From: an uncultured bacterium
Lineage (GTDB): Bacteria; Patescibacteriota; Gracilibacteria; Absconditabacterales; Absconditicoccaceae
Assembly (NCBI GenBank): GCA_937872535.1
Contig: CALMTC010000002.1
Coordinates: 1-64,000 of the forward strand
Direction: 5' to 3'
Length of the DNA stretch: 64,000 nucleotides
Below, one piece after another: positions 46,908-56,528 of the stretch. The translations under genes and the position numbers were made by a program. Each line of letters begins with the position of its first letter. Position 1 is the first letter of the stretch. Below the pieces are notes generated by a model. That model saw nothing but the letters and a program-made list of their open reading frames with translations, made no database searches and was not told the origin of the DNA.

Positions 46908-48467
46908 ATGAAATTATTTTTCCTCAGAGAAGACAGTTTATACAAAATTTTCAAGACACTTGAAAAAATCCCCAAAAATAAAAAAGTTTCTTTATTTATC
47001 GACGAAGAGAACCAATTTTTTTCTAATATTTGGCGATGAAAACAAGTAAAGGCGACTCTCGAAGAAAAAAATATAAATGCCACTTTTGTTGTAAAATCAG
47101 CAAAAGCAAAGATCTATCTTGAAGAGGTTGGTCTTCAGATTCACTACGAAGCTCCTCATAAATTTGCTGAGTTTATGAGACTTGCCTATCTTTTTTTCTT
47201 CAATGCAAAAGAGTTTCACCTCTATATTTTTGCCAAGAGAAACTACTCGTTTTATATTATTTTTGGTTTCGAGTTGTGTGTCGTATTGGGAATTCTCTAT
47301 GGTCTGTATAGCATCATTTTGCCAAGCGCCACAGTCACTATCAAGCCAGCTTACAATCTTGAGGATATCGTCTACAATTTCCGTTACTACCCAAAAGATA
47401 AACCCATCAATGAAAAAGAGGTAATCTTTATCTGAATCCCTTATCAAACTGGCTATATTCAGTATAATTATACGATGACGACCAATGTCCAGAATGTGAA
47501 ATATTTTCAAAAACCATCTCAAGGGCGAATAAAAATTATCAATACCCAAAATAAAAGTTTATCTCTGCTAAAAAATACCAAATTTATTACAGATGAAGGA
47601 TTACTTTTTCAGACTGCAGAGTGGGTCAATGTTCCTGCTAAAAATAACGAGAAATTTGGAGAAGTAGCAGTGCAAGTCACAGCTTTGGAGCTTGATGCTA
47701 AAAATGAAGTGATTGGTCAGAGATGAAATTTGCCAAAAGATAAAAGACTCTATGCGAAAAATTTACCAGCTTCTATGATTCAGAAAAATGTTTATGCAGT
47801 GGTGATAAATAATTTTACAGGCTGACAGACAGCTATTCAGAGCGTAATTACGACAGGCGACATCTCAGCAATCAAGAAAAAGTTAGTAGACCATGTTCAG
47901 AATAACAAAAAAGTGATTGCGACCAAGTATTTTAATCTTGAAGACGCGTATCTTTTGAGATTTAATGATTTGATGACTGTGGAGATCGTTGATACGAAAG
48001 TAAAAAACCAGCCCTGAGAAAAAACAGCCCTCGTGGAATGAGAAATCAGTGCAAAAATCTTGATCAGATTTGTCCAGCGACAGGATATTGGTGAGTGAGT
48101 AAAAAAATATCTCGAGCAAAGACCAAATGAGAACCTCCAGCTCATTACTGTCGACAAAAAAAGTCTCATTCTCTATGACAAGACCGACACCAATAATTCT
48201 TTTATTATACCCACGAGAATCAGCACTATTTGGTGATATAATTTTGACAAAGACATCAATGGTATCAAGGAAGAGATGAGAGACAAACTCGTCTGAGTTT
48301 CTGAAGAAGAGGCAAAATCTATTATGCTGACTTATCCGACTGTCTGAGATGTCTTTATCACGACCACCCCACCACGATACAATCGTCTTCCTATGCTCAA
48401 ATCCAGAATCCTCTTTAAAATCCAAAATCCTGCCACCGACACCGATTTCGAGTTGAATAAAAACTAA
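46908..48467 (+). CDS. Baseplate J-like membrane protein
   Basis: This 519-residue protein has a cytoplasmic N-terminal domain of about 110 residues, one membrane helix (YIIFGFELCVVLGILYGLYS) and a large outer domain. That outer domain opens TVTIKPAYNLEDIVYNFRYY and includes TKFITDEGLLFQTAEWVNVP and AVQVTALELDAKNEVIG, a combination seen in the 'baseplate J/gp47-like' proteins common in CPR genomes. There is no phage context, so it is probably a cell-envelope protein rather than a phage part. TGA encodes glycine repeatedly, for example in NNFTGGQTAIQ. It starts 27 bp after the Lgt-like gene. Confidence 0.6.
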
Positions 48468-48497
48468 AAATCACTATAAACTCACCATCCACATCAT

Positions 48498-48521
48498 AAA
48501 ATTTTCATTCTGGTTATCGAA
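48498..48521 (+). repeat. TTCTGG short dispersed repeat
   Basis: ATTTTCATTCTGGTTATCGA immediately upstream of the truncated tRNA copy. It matches the reverse copy at 2207-2236. Confidence 0.65.
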
Positions 48522-48553
48522 AAAACATGGAGGTTGTAGCTCAGCTGGTAGAG
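48522..48553 (+). repeat. Duplicated 5' part of tRNA-His (direct repeat)
   Basis: A 32-bp exact copy of 48942-48973, covering four leader bases onward, the acceptor 5' strand and the D arm (ends CAGCTGGTAGAG). After it the sequence diverges: no anticodon arm for His and no acceptor 3' strand. It is therefore a pseudo-tRNA fragment. Together with the true gene it brackets the GIY-YIG gene. Confidence 0.85.
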
Positions 48554-48622
48554 TCCACGCAGTCCTGCGGGGTGGTTCCAAGGTCTGTAAATGTTCAATT
48601 TTAAGCTTGTCTACATCAAAAG

Positions 48623-48919
48623 ATGTACTATGTCTATATACTGAAAGGTCTTAGATCTTGAAAAGTTGCCCATTATATATGATACACTCATGATATTGAT
48701 CTTAGACTAGGACAACACTTGGCATGATGAACTCCAACAACTAAAAGAATATCGAACATCAGTCTTCTAGGCTATTTTACAAAAGAAACAAAAAAAGAGG
48801 CTATTATCCTAGAGAGGATGATAAAAAGAAACTGACATATTAACTATCGAGTTCAACACCCAACATTTTGCTTAAATAATCTTGAAGATTTTGAGGAGTT
48901 GAATAAGAATGAAGAATAA
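48623..48919 (+). CDS. Small GIY-YIG nuclease
   Basis: Read in code 25 this is a 98-residue protein: MYYVYILKGLRSG...HYIGYTHDIDLRLGQHLAGG and then TKRISNISLLGYFTKETKKE, AIILERMIKRNG. It holds the GIY-YIG core (YVYIL and YIGYT), the conserved Arg (DLRL), His and the metal-binding Glu (ILERMIK). It is closest to the small stand-alone YhbQ/UPF0213-like group. It is invisible under the standard code because of TGA in the motif region. It sits between a truncated and an intact tRNA-His copy, so it may be the cargo or agent of that duplication. Confidence 0.8.
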
Positions 48920-48948
48920 GTATAAGACAGTATCGTTCAAGAAAACAT

Positions 48949-49025
48949 GGAGGTTGTAGCTCAGCTGGTAGAGCAATGGGTTGTGGTTCCATTGGCCGCG
49001 GGTTCAAGTCCCGTCAGCCTCCCCA
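48949..49025 (+). tRNA. tRNA-His (anticodon GTG)
   Basis: Cloverleaf folded by eye: G-1, acceptor GAGGTTG with CAGCCTC, D stem GCTC/GAGC, anticodon stem ATGGG/TCCAT with loop TTGTGGT (anticodon GTG), T stem GCGGG/CCCGT with loop TTCAAGT. The genome-encoded G-1 faces C73, the identity element for HisRS, and CCA is encoded at 49023-49025. It is the only intact tRNA gene I find here. Confidence 0.95.
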
Positions 49026-49117: not shown

Positions 49118-49561
49118 ATGAAAATTGCTGTATGCTGAAGTATGGTTTTTCACAAAGAATTTGAAGAATTGAAAAGCCAATTAGATTCTATGGGTCATAA
49201 TACTCATATACCAGAATTAAAATTAGGAATGACAGATTGAAATATATCTATAAGAGACTATCTTGCAACAGAAGCAAAACCATGAGAAGATCTTACTTGG
49301 TTATGGAAAAAGAAAAATATAGCCATTTTAGATCACTTTAGAATAATAGAAGACAGTGATTGTATCTTGGTGGCAAATTATGAAAAAAAATGAATCCCTT
49401 GATATATAGGAGTTAATACAATGCTTGAAATGTGATTGGCTACTTATTACGGTAAACCGATCTATCTATTAGATAATGTTCCATCAGAAATAGATTGGAT
49501 GGATGAAATTTATGGTATGATGCCAAGCGTAATAAATTTTGATCTGAAAAAAATTATATAA
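49118..49561 (+). CDS. Nucleoside 2-deoxyribosyltransferase-like Rossmann protein
   Basis: This 147-residue protein starts MKIAVCGSMVFHKEFEELKS, a Rossmann-type opening. It continues ILDHFRIIEDSDCILVANYE, GIPGYIGVNTMLEMGLATYY and GKPIYLLDNVPSEIDWMDEI. This order is typical of small nucleoside 2-deoxyribosyltransferase-like or MazG-associated nucleotide-binding proteins. The conserved Glu of NTMLEMG would be catalytic in the deoxyribosyltransferases. TGA encodes the glycine of the first loop. It follows the tRNA-His gene and precedes a terminator; no link to the CRISPR system is implied beyond location. Confidence 0.65.
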
Positions 49562-49687: not shown

Positions 49688-52600
49688 ATGAGCAAGTTGT
49701 TTGAAAATATGACAAATCTCTATAGTCTTAATAAAACATTGAGATTTGAACTCAAGCCAGTAGGGAACACGAGGGAATTAATTGAATCAAAAGATTTTTT
49801 CAAAAATGATGAAGAAAAAGCAGAAAATTATCAATTCATGAAAGAAAAAATGGATAAAATTCATCGAAATTATATACAAAAATCATTAGAAACAATAAAA
49901 ATGTTACCAATTTTGGATCAAACAGAACAAAAACGATTGAAAAAAGAAGATATTAAAAATGAATTAAAAAGTCTTAGATCTTTTATTTCAGCAGCATTTG
50001 TTTCAGTAAAAGATTTATTAAGTAATAAAATTATTGAGTGACTTATTTCTGAGGCAAGTATTGAAGAAAAAGAAAAAATAAAGAAGTTTGATAAATTTTT
50101 TGGTTATTTTAAAACCTATGTACAAAATAGAGGTAATCTTTATAAAGCTGAAGATAAAGCAGGTCAAATAGCTTTTCGTCTTATTGATGAGAATCTTCCT
50201 CGTTTTTTTAAAGCAAAACAAATTATAGAAGAAATCATTAAAAAAACACCTGATTTTGTAGTAAAAGAAAGAAATGAGAAACAAGAAGAGACAGAAAAAA
50301 AAATAACTGAATATTTAAGTATTTTTTACCTAAATTCTTATTGTCATTATCTCTCACAGTCTGGAATTGATCTCTTCAACGAAATTGTTGGTCATATAAA
50401 TCTTTCCATTAATTTATATAAGCAAAAAACAGGAGTGAAATTCAGCCTTATACCTTTATTATACAAACTACCTCTTGCACCAAGAAAACAGATATCTCGA
50501 TTACCAAAACAAATAGAAAATCCAGAAGAATTAGAATTGATTGTAAAATCAGTCTTAGATCGCATAGACCAAAAAATTAATCCTTTTATAAATAACATTT
50601 TACAGACTGTCTTGGAAGAGAATAGTGTATATGATTTAAATTGAATATATATTTCTATTAAAACGACAGAACAATGGTGATCAATAGGTCTATCTGGTCG
50701 AAATAGTTTGCGTGAGTTGGGCTATAACCAATCAAAAAATTGAGAAGAACCTGTATTAAAGGCAGAAAAAAATAAATTTCCTTTTATTTCTCTTGGAGAG
50801 ATAAAATCTTTTCTTGATGCCAAACAATTAGCATGAGATGATATAAAATCAGTTTTTTGAGAGGGAAAATCTCAAAGTTTAATGAACTGAAGTTGGTCAA
50901 ATATATTTTTTCATCTTATAGGTAAAGAAATATCATCATTGATTGAAAAATACTTACATTCAAGAAAAAATTATCAAATCTCACAAAGCAAAGAAAATCA
51001 AAAACATGTTCTTGATAATTCACTTTCTCTTTGGAGGTTGTTGGGTTGATTTGTTCTCATGCACAAAAAAACACATCTTACACCGGAAATAAAAGAAAGT
51101 TTCTTCTACGATTGAGAAAATGGACTTGATGCTATAGTTTTCGATGAAAATAGTGACCCAATTCATACGATTTATGATAAAGTAAGAAATTGTCTGACTA
51201 AAAAACCATATAGCAACAAAGATAAAATTAAAGTAAATTTCGATTGTCCTTATCTACTGTGAGGCTGGGACCAGAATTATGATGCTTTTGGTTGACTAAT
51301 ATTTCATGATTGAAAAAAATATTTTCTCTGACTTATAAAAGGGTCATGATTAAATATGGAGGAAAAAAACAAACTATATGAATGAATAAACCCAATGAAC
51401 AGTATAACAAAAATCATTTATGATTATCAAAAACCAGATTTCAAAAATGTACCAAGGTTATTCATTCGTTCAAAATGAGATACATTTGCGCCAATGGTAA
51501 GGGAATACTGATTGCCTGTAAATGATATTCTATATCTTTATGACAATGAATTATACAAGCCAGATAAGAAGAACCCCTGAAAACATAAATCTTATCTAAG
51601 AAGATTAATAGATTATTTTAAACTATGATTAAGTAAACACAAATCATTTAAACATTATATCTTTAAACGAAAAGAAAGTGATCAATACGAAAATCTTGCA
51701 GAATTCTATAGTGATGTAGAATTTTCATGTTATGCAATAAAGAAGGAAAAAGTTAATTTCGATCAGGTCAAAGCATTATGCGAATCAGAAAGGCTATATC
51801 TCTTTGAAATTTATAATAAAGATTATAACCAATTTTCCAAATGAAAAAACAAAAACTTACATACTCAGTACTTTGAAGCACTTTTTGAGGAGCGCGATAA
51901 TAATCTTTTTATGTTAAGTGGTGGATGATCTATATTTTGGAGAGAATCAAATTGAAAAATAGTTGAGAAAATAAGATCATATTCACCCAAATATAATATA
52001 GAAATAATTGATAAAAGAAGATATACAAAAAATAAGCTTATGATCCATATACCAATAGTTCTTAACTTTTGCCGTAACCAAGAATGAAGAGTGAATGATA
52101 TGATTAAATCTCTTATTCAATCTCAATCAAATAATTTCACGATACTCGGAATTGATCGCTGAGAAAAACATCTTTTGTATTATTCGCTGATTAGACAAGA
52201 TTGAACCATTATTAAAACAGGAAGTCGAAATACTATTACTAATAAAATTAAAATAGTAGATTATCATAAGAAATTAGATGACAGAGAAAAAAAGAGAGAT
52301 GAAGCACAAGCAAATTGGGAACAACAAGAACAAATCAAAGATCTTAAAAAATGATATATTTCTCAAGTAATTAATGAAATTAGTAAAATGATTATCGAAC
52401 ATAATGCAATTATTGTATTGGAAGACCTTAATGGATGATTCAAAAGGTGAAGACAAAAGGTAGAAAAAAGTATTTATCAACAATTTGAGTTAGCATTGGC
52501 AAAGAAACTTAATCATCTGGTTTTCAAGAACAGATGAGATACAGAAAGTTGAGGTACTATGAAAGCATATCAATTGACTCCACTTGTAGCACAATTTCAG

Positions 52601-53251
52601 GATTTATCATTTCAAACATGAGTTGTTTTTTATACGCCTGCATGATATACTTCAACAACTTGTCCTTGTTGTGGTTGGAGAAAAAATATATATTTTAAAT
52701 ATGAAAATGAGAAACAAGCAAAAATAGAACTTGAGAAATTAAATATTGTCAGAGAAAACAATTATTTTAGTATAACATATACTGCTGAGTGATGAAATAA
52801 AAAGTGAAAAATAACTTGATCAGTTCTTAATAAAACAGATCGAATACTTACTACAAAATGACAAACCAGATTACAATATGATAGAGCAAGTAAAAACACA
52901 AAAGAATACGATATAACGACTGATTTTAATTCTGTTTTTACAGCAAAATTTCTTGATTATAAAATACGGTTGGAAAATGCTGGTTCTAAACAATGTAGAA
53001 ATCTTATAAATAGTATAAATCTTTTATTAAAAATTCGTAATGCAAAATCTGGTACTGATATAGATACCATTCAATGTCCTGCATGTGAATTTCATAGCCA
53101 GTGATGATTTCAATGAAATGAATTTAATTGAGATGCAAATTGAGCATATAACATTGCTCGTAAAGGGAAAGTCATTATAGATAAAATAGTAAAAGGAGAA
53201 AAAAATACTACGGTTTCTCAAATTGAGTTCGATAATGAGATTCAGAAATAG
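49688..53251 (+). CDS. cas12a: Cas12a (Cpf1), type V-A CRISPR effector nuclease
   Basis: This 1,187-residue protein is at the short end for Cas12a. The N-terminus MTNLYSLNKTLRFELKPVGN is the family hallmark. The REC lobe is followed by WED/PI segments (HFHxxxI-type DNA/RNA contacts) and RuvC-I GIDRGEKHLLYYSLI (Asp823), RuvC-II IVLEDLNGGF (Glu912) and RuvC-III DANGAYNIARKG (Asp1149). Between them lie two cysteine pairs, TCPCCGW (Cys992, Cys995) and QCPACEF (Cys1130, Cys1133), that could bind zinc. Most Cas12a proteins I know have lost this site. TGA encodes glycines in REC and RuvC, including the invariant one in GIDRGE. It cuts DNA guided by a crRNA it processes itself. Confidence 0.97.
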
Positions 53252-53361
53252 ATAATAAATTGACTAATTACAGCATTAAAGATTTATATATATTGATATT
53301 TGAAAATCTTATATCTTTATCCAGATAGATTTTTTATTTATCAAATATATGACATAACAAA

Positions 53362-53940
53362 ATGGAAAACTACATCCGCATCTCCAACCTCAATGATTTT
53401 ATCTTCTGTCCAAAGTCGATCTATTTTCACGAACTTTACCAGAAATATGACGAACAGATCTATAAGGATACGCCACAAGTAGCAGGTACGCAAGCCCACG
53501 AAGCAATAGATCTAAAAAAATATTCGACATCGAAGAATATCCTGCAATCTCTTTCTGTTTACTCAGAAAAATATAACATTGCAGGGAAAATCGACCTATA
53601 CGATGCTGATAAACAGCTTCTGATTGAAAGAAAGAAAAAGATCTCAAAAATCTATGATGGCTATAGATATCAGGTCTATGCTCAGTATTTTTGTTTACAA
53701 GAAATGTGATATCCAGTATGTGAAATTAAAATACATTCACTAGTAGATAATAAATCCTATGATATACCAATTCCCAATGAACAAGAAACAGCAGAATTTG
53801 AAAATTTATTAGAAAAATACAGGAAATTTAATCTATCAGACCCAAAATTTGCACAAAATCCGGAAAAGTGTAAGATGTGTATATACAATCAATTATGTGA
53901 TTACTATACACAAACATGTTATCAATCCCCGACTTGATAG
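53362..53940 (+). CDS. cas4: Cas4 exonuclease
   Basis: This 192-residue Cas4 has ISNLNDFIFCPKSIYFHELY with the first iron-sulfur cysteine, GKIDLYD and LLIERKKK of the PD-(D/E)XK nuclease core, a QVYAQYFCLQE motif IV-like helix, and the three C-terminal cysteines CKMCIYNQLC. It trims prespacers and helps select the PAM end during adaptation. The reading frame ends TGA (Gly) then TAG, overlapping cas1 by 25 bases, so translation is coupled. It comes about 110 bp after cas12a. Confidence 0.95.
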
Positions 53941-54884
53941 AAAAACAAATTGTCGTGCTTACTTCAGAAAATATAAAAGATATATCGCTGAAAAACGGCA
54001 ATCTTTTAGTAAAACAGGACGACAAAATTATCAATCAAATTTCTTGTCATAAGATATTTTGTATTTTTGCTATAGGCGATTTTACTTTTACGACCAAAAT
54101 TATAGACGAATTTATTGCTCATCAGATTAGTGTCTATGTGATAAGCCATAATCTAAAACCAAGGTTTATAATCTGATGAACTCTTGAAGGAAATTATCTT
54201 CTGAGACAAAAACAGTATCATGCTGATCTTAATCAGGAAACCCAGATTGCCAAACATATTATCACCAATAAAACTACAAATCAGCTTCTTTTGCTTAAAT
54301 CTATCAGAGATAAAGACGACAAACTCAAAGATACTATTAGTAAAACAAAAGAATTAATCGCTAAAATAGAAACTATCGAATCTGATGACAGTCTCAGAGG
54401 AATAGAATGATCTATTTCAAAATTATTTTTTTCTGGCTACTTCAAAGAAATATGACGATACCGCAGATTACCAAGAACTCGTGCAGATATCCCAAATTTT
54501 TTGATGGATATTGGCTATACTTACTTATACAATTTTATTGAAGCAAATCTAAATCTTTATGGATTTGATGTATACAAAGGTATTTATCATAAACTCTTTT
54601 ATGAAAGAAAATCACTTGTTTGTGATTTTGTAGAGCCATTTAGATCAATCGTCGACCACAAAATCAGAAAACTATATAACTTATGACAGATAAACGAGAA
54701 AGACTTTAAACTTGTAAAATGAGAATATACTTTAAGTCGAGACAAAAGAAATCTTTATACTAAATTTTTTCTGGAAACTTTAATGGAATATAAAATTCCA
54801 ATTTTTTCATATGTTAAGGACTACTATAGAGCAATAATGAACCCAAATAATCCGCTTCCTGTTTTTAATTTCAAAGAAGAATAA
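53916..54884 (+). CDS. cas1: Cas1 integrase
   Basis: This 322-residue Cas1 starts MLSIPDLIEKQIVVLTSENI. It has the beta-strand N-domain and a helical C-domain with RRLPRTRADIPNFLMDIGYTYL (containing a metal-ligand region), KGIYHKLFYERKSLVCDFVE and PFRSIVDHKIRKLYN. His and Glu/Asp ligands expected for Cas1 are present in YHKLF and CDFVEP. With Cas2 it inserts new spacers at the leader end. TGA is glycine at several sites. It overlaps cas4 by 25 bases and cas2 by one base. Confidence 0.95.
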
Positions 54885-55162
54885 TGCTACTTATCTCTTA
54901 TGACATCTCGAATACAAAACTCAGAACACAGTTTTCTAAGTTCATCAAAAAACATGGCAGAAGATTGCAATTTTCAGTATACGAGATAAAAAATAGTGAA
55001 AGAATCCTTAATATCATACTTCTAGAAATAGAAAATAACTTTGCTAAAAGATTTGAAATCACAGACTCAATACTTATAGTCCCAGTATGTGAGTGGTGTA
55101 GTAAGAAAATAATCAGATATGGCTACGCCGTTCACGAAGAAGAAGAGATTGTCTTCATGTAA
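54884..55162 (+). CDS. cas2: Cas2
   Basis: This 92-residue Cas2 shows the ferredoxin-like opening MLLISYDISNTKLRTQFSKF, with the conserved Asp in SYDIS, then GRRLQFSVYEI and VPVCEWCSKKIIRYG. It forms the Cas1-Cas2 integrase scaffold. The start codon overlaps the cas1 stop (TAATG). It has no in-frame TGA. It is the last gene before the array. Confidence 0.95.
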   Translation: MLLISYDISNTKLRTQFSKFIKKHGRRLQFSVYEIKNSERILNIILLEIENNFAKRFEITDSILIVPVCEWCSKKIIRYGYAVHEEEEIVFM

Positions 55163-55370
55163 TGTTCATTAAAATCAAAAAAACTATAATGAGAAATTAG
55201 GTTATGAGTTGTAACTATAAACTTTTGCTGACTATGAGTCGGCTTACTTCGTCAATAAAAATTGCAAACCTACCGTCTTTATTTTATTGATGAATGGTAC
55301 TAAGCGATTTTCAAGTCTCTCATGCAAAGTGTGTATGATTTGAAAATCGCTTATTTGAGCCATTTTAGGA
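55163..55370 (+). promoter_or_regulatory. CRISPR leader with a 14-bp inverted repeat
   Basis: AT-rich gap between cas2 and the first repeat, with no gene. Inside it, TAAGCGATTTTCAA (55301-55314) and TTGAAAATCGCTTA (55340-55353) form a perfect 14-bp inverted repeat with a 25-base loop, 17 bases before the array. Position suggests the leader; the inverted repeat may be an integration-factor or regulator site, or a terminator-like structure after cas2. Confidence 0.75.
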
Positions 55371-56369
55371 GTTTATAACTTATAAAAAATTTCTACTATT
55401 GTAGATCTTTCCTTACTGTATCTAATGTTTGATCGTTTATAACTTATAAAAAATTTCTACTATTGTAGATTCTCCGATGAAAATGAAATATAAATCACGT
55501 TTATAACTTATAAAAAATTTCTACTATTGTAGATTTAAAGTGCGGAAAGGTTGAAACTATTATTTGTTTATAACTTATAAAAAATTTCTACTATTGTAGA
55601 TAATTCAGATAGCTGCCTGTTGTTCACGTTTATAACTTATAAAAAATTTCTACTATTGTAGATCCAAGTGTCTGCACATTGCATGAATCTTGTTTATAAC
55701 TTATAAAAAATTTCTACTATTGTAGATATACTGTCTGCAAAGCAGTTTCAGCAAAGTTTATAACTTATAAAAAATTTCTACTATTGTAGATACACAAAAA
55801 CAAAGATGTACTATAAAAAGTTTATAACTTATAAAAAATTTCTACTATTGTAGATAGCCACTAGGCTTATGTTGATAATGTTGTTTATAACTTATAAAAA
55901 ATTTCTACTATTGTAGATAAGAAACCGTCTGAGAGGAGATTGATAGTTTATAACTTATAAAAAATTTCTACTATTGTAGATTGTTGGTTCGGTTGCATCC
56001 TTGAGCATGTTTATAACTTATAAAAAATTTCTACTATTGTAGATCTAGCCGATGACAGACGACAACAAACTGAAGTTTATAACTTATAAAAAATTTCTAC
56101 TATTGTAGATCTAGCCGATGACAGACGACAACAAACTGAAGTTTATAACTTATAAAAAATTTCTACTATTGTAGATAGAAACAGACATCCCAATAGCTAC
56201 GACTGGGTTTATAACTTATAAAAAATTTCTACTATTGTAGATATCTGCGATTGCGGTATAAATTGGTGTGTTTATAACTTATAAAAAATTTCTACTATTG
56301 TAGATTTTTCAGTAGTTATCGAGCTGTCTCCAAGTTTATAACTTATAAAAAATTTCTACTATTGTAGAT
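55371..56369 (+). CRISPR. CRISPR array, 16 repeats of 36 bp, 15 spacers
   Basis: Identical 36-bp repeats begin GTTTATAACTTATAAAA and end AATTTCTACTATTGTAGAT, the Cas12a crRNA handle (stem TCTAC/GTAGA). Repeats start at 55371, 55435, 55499, 55566, 55628, 55692, 55756, 55820, 55883, 55946, 56009, 56075, 56141, 56207, 56270 and 56334. Spacers are 26-31 bp. The spacers at 56045 and 56111 are identical. No spacer has an obvious match elsewhere in the window by eye. The last repeat shows no decay, so array polarity rests on the leader next to cas2. Confidence 0.99.
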
Positions 56370-56528
56370 TTTGACTCATCAGCAAAGTAACTAAGAAGTA
56401 AAATAAAAATGATAGTGAAAATTAGAACTAGAAATAATGCTTTTTAAGCATATATTGCCTCCCACTTGATCTCATCTTCCCAATCCCTATAAAAAAACTG
56501 AAAAAAATTTATTTTCTGATTTTCTCAA

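Follow-up and report, generated by a model that had tools for sequence, protein, structure and literature searches.

We favor, as a probable though unsettled reading, that in an uncultured Absconditicoccaceae bacterium a minimal GIY-YIG element has inserted into the anticodon arm of the tRNA-His gene, which makes this locus an occupied site, and that this element spreads in the manner of a homing gene; its cleavage activity and its mobility are inferred. The locus lies on contig CALMTC010000002.1, the first 64,000 nucleotides of which were analyzed (the window). A preliminary description of this DNA had suggested a minimal homing or insertion element that keeps its tRNA intact. This idea is now supported by the recurrence of the unit at other tRNA genes and by a tRNA-Lys(CTT) site that is occupied in one genome and empty in another.

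The anatomy of the locus can be observed directly. A 32-bp exact direct repeat is present at positions 48522-48553 and 48942-48973 (spacing 420) and reaches 37 nt at 95% identity. An exact repeat of this length is far beyond chance. The second copy is the leader and 5' part of an intact forward-strand tRNA-His (GTG) at 48950-49025, which is called by ARAGORN and by Rfam (RF00005, 63.6 bits) and whose G-1 is encoded at 48949. The upstream copy matches it at 32/32 positions on the same strand and comprises the leader and 5' part of the tRNA (positions -7 to 24), but neither ARAGORN nor Rfam calls a tRNA there. Coordinates and identity of the repeat around the GIY-YIG gene were confirmed as previously described. 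Same-strand duplicates of at least 18 nt within 700 bp were found for only 7 of the 36 tRNAs of this genome that were examined, and we therefore rejected the possibility, named earlier as a potential refutation, that such repeats are a general feature of tRNA leaders.

In the upstream copy, the palindrome TCCACGCAGTCCTGCGGGG (48554-48572, forward strand) directly follows the TAGAG of the 5' half and takes the place of the anticodon arm. A similar sequence is found at the same position in G010, a genome of another genus. The hairpin at 48554-48572 is imperfect and not exceptional (z -0.6), whereas most other pseudo-tRNAs have hairpins at this position. Its CGCAG..CTGCG core is dispersed through the genome. 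The dispersed palindrome CGCAGTACTGCG / CGCAGTCCTGCG occurs at 8 places of this genome besides the one at tRNA-His, and a wider palindrome pattern has about 40 places in genome G029, where the reversed control pattern has none. The sequence after the palindrome, TGGTTCCA.., weakly resembles the 3' part of the tRNA in decayed form. The putative remnant, TGGTTCCAAGGTCTGTAA (48573-48590, forward strand), rests on a by-eye resemblance to TGGTTCCATTGGCCGCGGG and on the analogy with G010, where, as at other loci, the remnant is clearer. Since a palindrome and a decayed 3' remnant appear to come after the 5' half, we read the upstream copy as a putative pseudo-tRNA with a replaced anticodon arm and not as a bare 5' half. 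The earlier view that the duplicate is the 5' half of the tRNA consequently holds here with the palindrome and, weakly, the remnant added, but it does not hold for every locus, as some loci duplicate the 3' half. An element of purely 5'-half type was rejected because both halves occur among the loci.

A promoter-like 30-nt stretch (TTGAAT-N17-TATAAA/G) is also duplicated, at 48450 and 48896, with 80% identity. The upstream version (TTGAAT-17-TATAAA, 48450-48481, forward strand, direct repeat family D2) precedes the half copy and is inferred, from resemblance to the consensus alone, to be the original tRNA-His promoter. The second (TTGAAT-17-TATAAG, 48896-48925, forward strand), an 80% repeat of 48450-48479, overlaps the 3' end of the nuclease reading frame. 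A 24-bp exact repeat on opposite strands was also noted, with one copy upstream of the half tRNA (48496-48519) and the other near another gene (2217-2240).

The reading frame between the repeats (48623-48919, forward strand) contains five in-frame TGA codons, which are read as glycine in code 25. The 98-residue GIY-YIG protein proposed for this interval matched PF01541 at 2.7e-9. The GIY and YIG tyrosines as well as the Arg, His and Glu are conserved, and Y5, Y18, G20, R28, H32 and E64 are invariant columns of the alignment (A2), which meets the criterion for a UPF0213-like member of the GIY-YIG superfamily. The best PDB matches are the UPF0213 entries 1zg2 and 1ywl, with SLX1 and UvrC next among solved relatives. 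No other database-supported reading frame, no integrase and no Y1 (TnpA-like) transposase was found in the tRNA-His unit. An integrase-mediated island was rejected because the GIY-YIG gene is the only database-supported reading frame inside the unit, and a REP/RAYT system, for which a Y1 transposase should lie beside the palindromes, was rejected as well. A group I intron with a homing gene was ruled out because Rfam at E up to 10 returned only the tRNA and weak unrelated matches, and the tRNA is uninterrupted. Phage records queried with one nuclease relative gave no match, and a scan of viral contigs found no relatives. The neighboring part of the window holds a 147-aa reading frame without Pfam match (49118-49561), the DNA of which is conserved in G009 and G025 (69%). 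It also holds, at 49688-56399, a Cas12a gene (1187 aa, 42 in-frame TGA) followed by further reading frames and a CRISPR array with 16 repeats (GTTTATAACTTATAAAAAATTTCTACTATTGTAGAT), two adjacent spacers of which are identical.

The arrangement recurs at many tRNA genes, as a search for the same unit at other tRNAs, proposed at the outset, revealed. In a family survey, nearly all of the 22 GIY-YIG relatives from 14 genomes adjoin an intact tRNA, most of them with a partial duplicate of that tRNA. When 288 genomes of the class were searched with a profile, a tight clade and a broader set of relatives emerged, and the surroundings of 122 distinct relatives were read. These came from the top of the score list and are not a random sample, but proximity to a tRNA was no selection criterion. 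A tRNA gene was present within 400 bp of 98 relatives and was co-oriented with the nuclease gene in every case (98/98), and an exact duplicate (at least 14 nt) of part of the near tRNA across the nuclease gene was found for 62 of the 122. As only about 2.2% of the genome studied here lies within 400 bp of a tRNA and all 98 near relatives are co-oriented with theirs, a chance neighborhood of nuclease and tRNA was rejected. For 24 relatives no tRNA is near; some of these are at the ends of contigs, and in one (L070) the tRNA contains a scaffold gap. The unit is found with tRNAs for Lys, Arg, Met, Trp, Leu, Gln, Glu, Ile, Tyr, Phe, Gly and others; further nuclease genes in the genome under study are partnered with Met, Glu and Ile. 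Relatives outside the tight clade were meant as a control and turned out to be tRNA-associated too, many of them without a detectable duplicate. Within this genome, a tRNA duplicate cannot be predicted from the presence of a nuclease gene within 500 bp alone (Fisher p = 1), because tRNA clusters place several tRNAs near one nuclease gene.

The common junction in the class is the anticodon arm, with the palindrome as a recurrent part. Upstream duplicates most often end at position 27 (11/39 in the tally) and downstream duplicates often start at 42-46 (11/37), positions which border the anticodon arm; other junctions fall in the T arm, the acceptor or elsewhere. Two layouts were seen: at the tRNA-His locus the 5' half is followed by the palindrome, the nuclease gene and the intact tRNA, and in the second layout the intact tRNA is followed by the nuclease gene, the palindrome and a 3' half. 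At some loci a half is present at either outer end, and the nuclease gene and the intact tRNA lie between the two. The palindrome in anticodon-arm position is usually a CCCGNT..ANCGGG hairpin. Pseudo-tRNAs lacking a GIY-YIG gene but with a palindrome in anticodon-arm position are also present in this genome at C11:212883 (tRNA-Lys, CCCGNT..ANCGGG) and C18:7768 (tRNA-Tyr, TCCGAT..ATCGGA). At C11:157819 (tRNA-Val) and C9:344 (tRNA-Leu), the tRNA 3' end is duplicated 127-138 bp downstream, behind other hairpins and without a nuclease gene.

Searching the relatives for tRNA-His, we found that G010 carries a half copy, the palindrome CACGCAGTACTGCGTG, a GIY-YIG gene and an intact tRNA-His. Its nuclease is 56% identical to that of the locus described here over 82 residues. 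Within their first 24 positions the tRNA-His genes of both genomes show three differences, yet each half copy is exact to the tRNA of its own genome, which implies either independent insertion or homogenization. In most of the remaining family members the tRNA-His gene lacks the unit, but no syntenic empty site for the tRNA-His locus itself was found in the relatives. Both checks suggested at the outset nevertheless gave the expected outcome, the comparison with an empty site at another tRNA. In one genus, tRNA-Lys(CTT) is occupied in G012 and empty in G022 at a syntenic position, so that the occupied and empty alleles at one site in relatives that a homing gene should show are observed in this one case. 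In G012, 449 bp separate tRNA position 27 from the resumption of the 3' part. The promoter-side flanks of both genomes align (score 57 versus 15+-6.6 for shuffled sequences, maximum 44) and the terminator is common to both. The two genomes represent different species, about 70% identical in the neighboring gene. A further genome, G061, has two tandem pseudo-copies with a D-loop palindrome and no nuclease.

Nuclease clade and tRNA identity are associated. On a GIY-YIG tree of 95 rows we counted 44 isotype changes, compared to 71.7+-2.0 for shuffled labels and 67.8+-2.0 when labels were shuffled within host families. With one row per host family and isotype the signal is smaller (33.8 versus 38.3 changes, roughly 3 sd), and shared descent therefore contributes to it. 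The tree is based on 83 columns and leaves many forks unresolved. A specificity of the nuclease for its tRNA is likely on this basis.

Under the homing-type reading, what remains upstream would be the native promoter and leader of the tRNA together with its D-arm half, and these would probably drive the nuclease gene, an expression that is inferred. The anticodon arm of the broken copy would be exchanged for the palindrome, and the element would bring a leader, 5' half and anticodon arm of its own; joined to the native 3' half, these would form one intact tRNA. The predicted action of the nuclease is a nick or cut in the anticodon arm of a cognate tRNA gene that is unoccupied. Repair of the break from an occupied donor, with the two tRNA halves as homology arms, would then copy the nuclease gene and the replacement tRNA together. 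Cleavage of the unoccupied allele, spread by repair and the recency of any movement are all inferences. A homing gene should also destroy its own target upon insertion, and this is not the case: only the broken copy loses its anticodon arm, while the intact tRNA keeps an unaltered one and still carries the presumed target. Self-immunity is left unexplained, because the anticodon arm of the empty tRNA-His in G008 is identical to the occupied one.

The recurrent palindromes could instead mean that a structure-specific, SLX1-like nuclease acts on palindromes that extrude cruciforms. The hairpin would then mark the ends of the element, and tRNA stem-loops (the anticodon arm here, the T or D arm elsewhere) would be targeted as hairpin formers. 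Hairpins at the anticodon-arm position of most pseudo-tRNAs fit this idea: 48/59 junction windows have a hairpin z < -1.5 (repeated copies of one locus being counted more than once), similar TCCCGNT..ANCGGGA hairpins are found at unrelated tRNAs, and hairpins also occur in T-arm and D-loop copies. The position of SLX1 and UvrC as nearest solved relatives after UPF0213 makes it plausible. CCCG..CGGG hairpins are moreover enriched genome-wide in many of these genomes, but this enrichment shows no clear link to the presence of the nuclease, and such hairpins may be terminators or unrelated repeats. As the hairpin of the tRNA-His locus is unexceptional and the association of nuclease clade with isotype suggests sequence specificity, we consider this explanation unlikely.

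Frequent tandem duplication of tRNA loci with loss of one half, the nuclease being a hitch-hiker or a retained host repair gene, would account for the tandem units of pseudo-tRNA, about 82-148 bp long, that lack a nuclease gene. It would also account for the nuclease-free half copies of four tRNAs of this genome (Lys, Tyr, Leu, Val). These half copies also speak against homing, as they indicate that duplication can occur or persist without the nuclease, and so do the many relatives outside the tight clade for which no duplicate was detected. However, a passive process is very hard to reconcile with 80% of the nuclease relatives adjoining tRNAs, all near ones in the orientation of the tRNA, or with a junction that recurs at the anticodon arm and a like pattern in other phyla. 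That the pseudo-tRNAs are functional, as RNA decoys for tRNA-targeting enzymes or as regulators kept with the nuclease as a unit, would suit the intact and exact halves, the swap of the anticodon arm for another hairpin and the occasional tandem copies, but is scarcely tenable given that truncation in the T arm or acceptor affects most copies, which tRNA finders miss, that layouts vary by locus and that the 3' part at the tRNA-His locus is decayed.

The association extends to other phyla, including Bacteroidota, Chloroflexi, Proteobacteria, Marinimicrobia and Omnitrophota. A profile of the broader type gave more than 500 matches, of which the 80 best-scoring at named loci were inspected; they belong to the same protein family but not to the same clade. 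For 65 of these 80, a tRNA lies no more than 400 bp away; it is nearly always upstream and in the same orientation, and often it is tRNA-Ser. At a number of loci, 14-18 nt of the tRNA 3' end are repeated just past the nuclease, and in the examples read a hairpin precedes most such repeats. We tentatively raise the possibility, for which we hold less than even confidence, of a class of minimal mobile elements in several phyla. Each would consist of a palindrome, tRNA halves and a nuclease with GIY-YIG as its only domain, would put its own hairpin in place of a stem-loop of the tRNA and would restore the tRNA. Among UPF0213/COG2827 genes, many would then belong to this class, with pseudo-tRNAs that lack the nuclease as its non-autonomous derivatives.

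The nearest precedent is SegB of phages T4 and T6, a larger protein than the nucleases of the tRNA-His type. The available portions of the reports describe SegB as a free-standing GIY-YIG homing endonuclease that cuts within tRNA genes, is widely co-localized with tRNAs in phages and causes the tRNA locus to be amplified in tandem, with the motif RAWTSGAAC (PMC13096335, PMC2988022). To us this motif looks like the T arm. Both systems encode a GIY-YIG nuclease beside tRNA genes, but SegB is phage-borne, whereas the elements studied here lie on bacterial chromosomes and their proteins consist of one GIY-YIG domain with about 80-100 aa; for SegB, those portions describe neither a palindrome nor a target tRNA that is split and partly duplicated. 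In fungal mitochondria, atp6-type homing genes combine an endonuclease gene with a copy of part of the target, which keeps the host gene working. Unlike the tRNA-His element, their targets are protein-coding mitochondrial genes, with no tRNA and no palindrome. Integrative elements that target tRNAs with a tyrosine integrase likewise restore an intact tRNA and leave a partial repeat, but the GIY-YIG element has no integrase, measures about 300-460 bp, often duplicates the 5' half and uses a nuclease of another fold. REP palindromes with a RAYT (Y1) transposase resemble it in tying dispersed palindromes to a small nuclease, with the differences that GIY-YIG stands in place of the Y1 transposase and that the element is bound to tRNA genes. 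UPF0213/COG2827, which provides the closest solved sequences, is the nuclease's own protein family; the PDB entries name 1zg2 and 1ywl hypothetical, and no link of this family to split tRNAs was found in the open-access literature searched. Nor did that literature yield an account of bacterial split tRNAs with GIY-YIG genes. As most subscription papers and all bioRxiv preprints were outside its scope, novelty is provisional.

If the homing-type reading is true, a testable role would fall to a widespread nuclease family for which we found no function: its members would be selfish elements of tRNA genes, and by restoring the tRNA that they interrupt they would allow the host to survive. This would account for partial copies of tRNAs in annotated genomes and would extend the recently reported link between SegB and tRNAs in phages to bacterial chromosomes.
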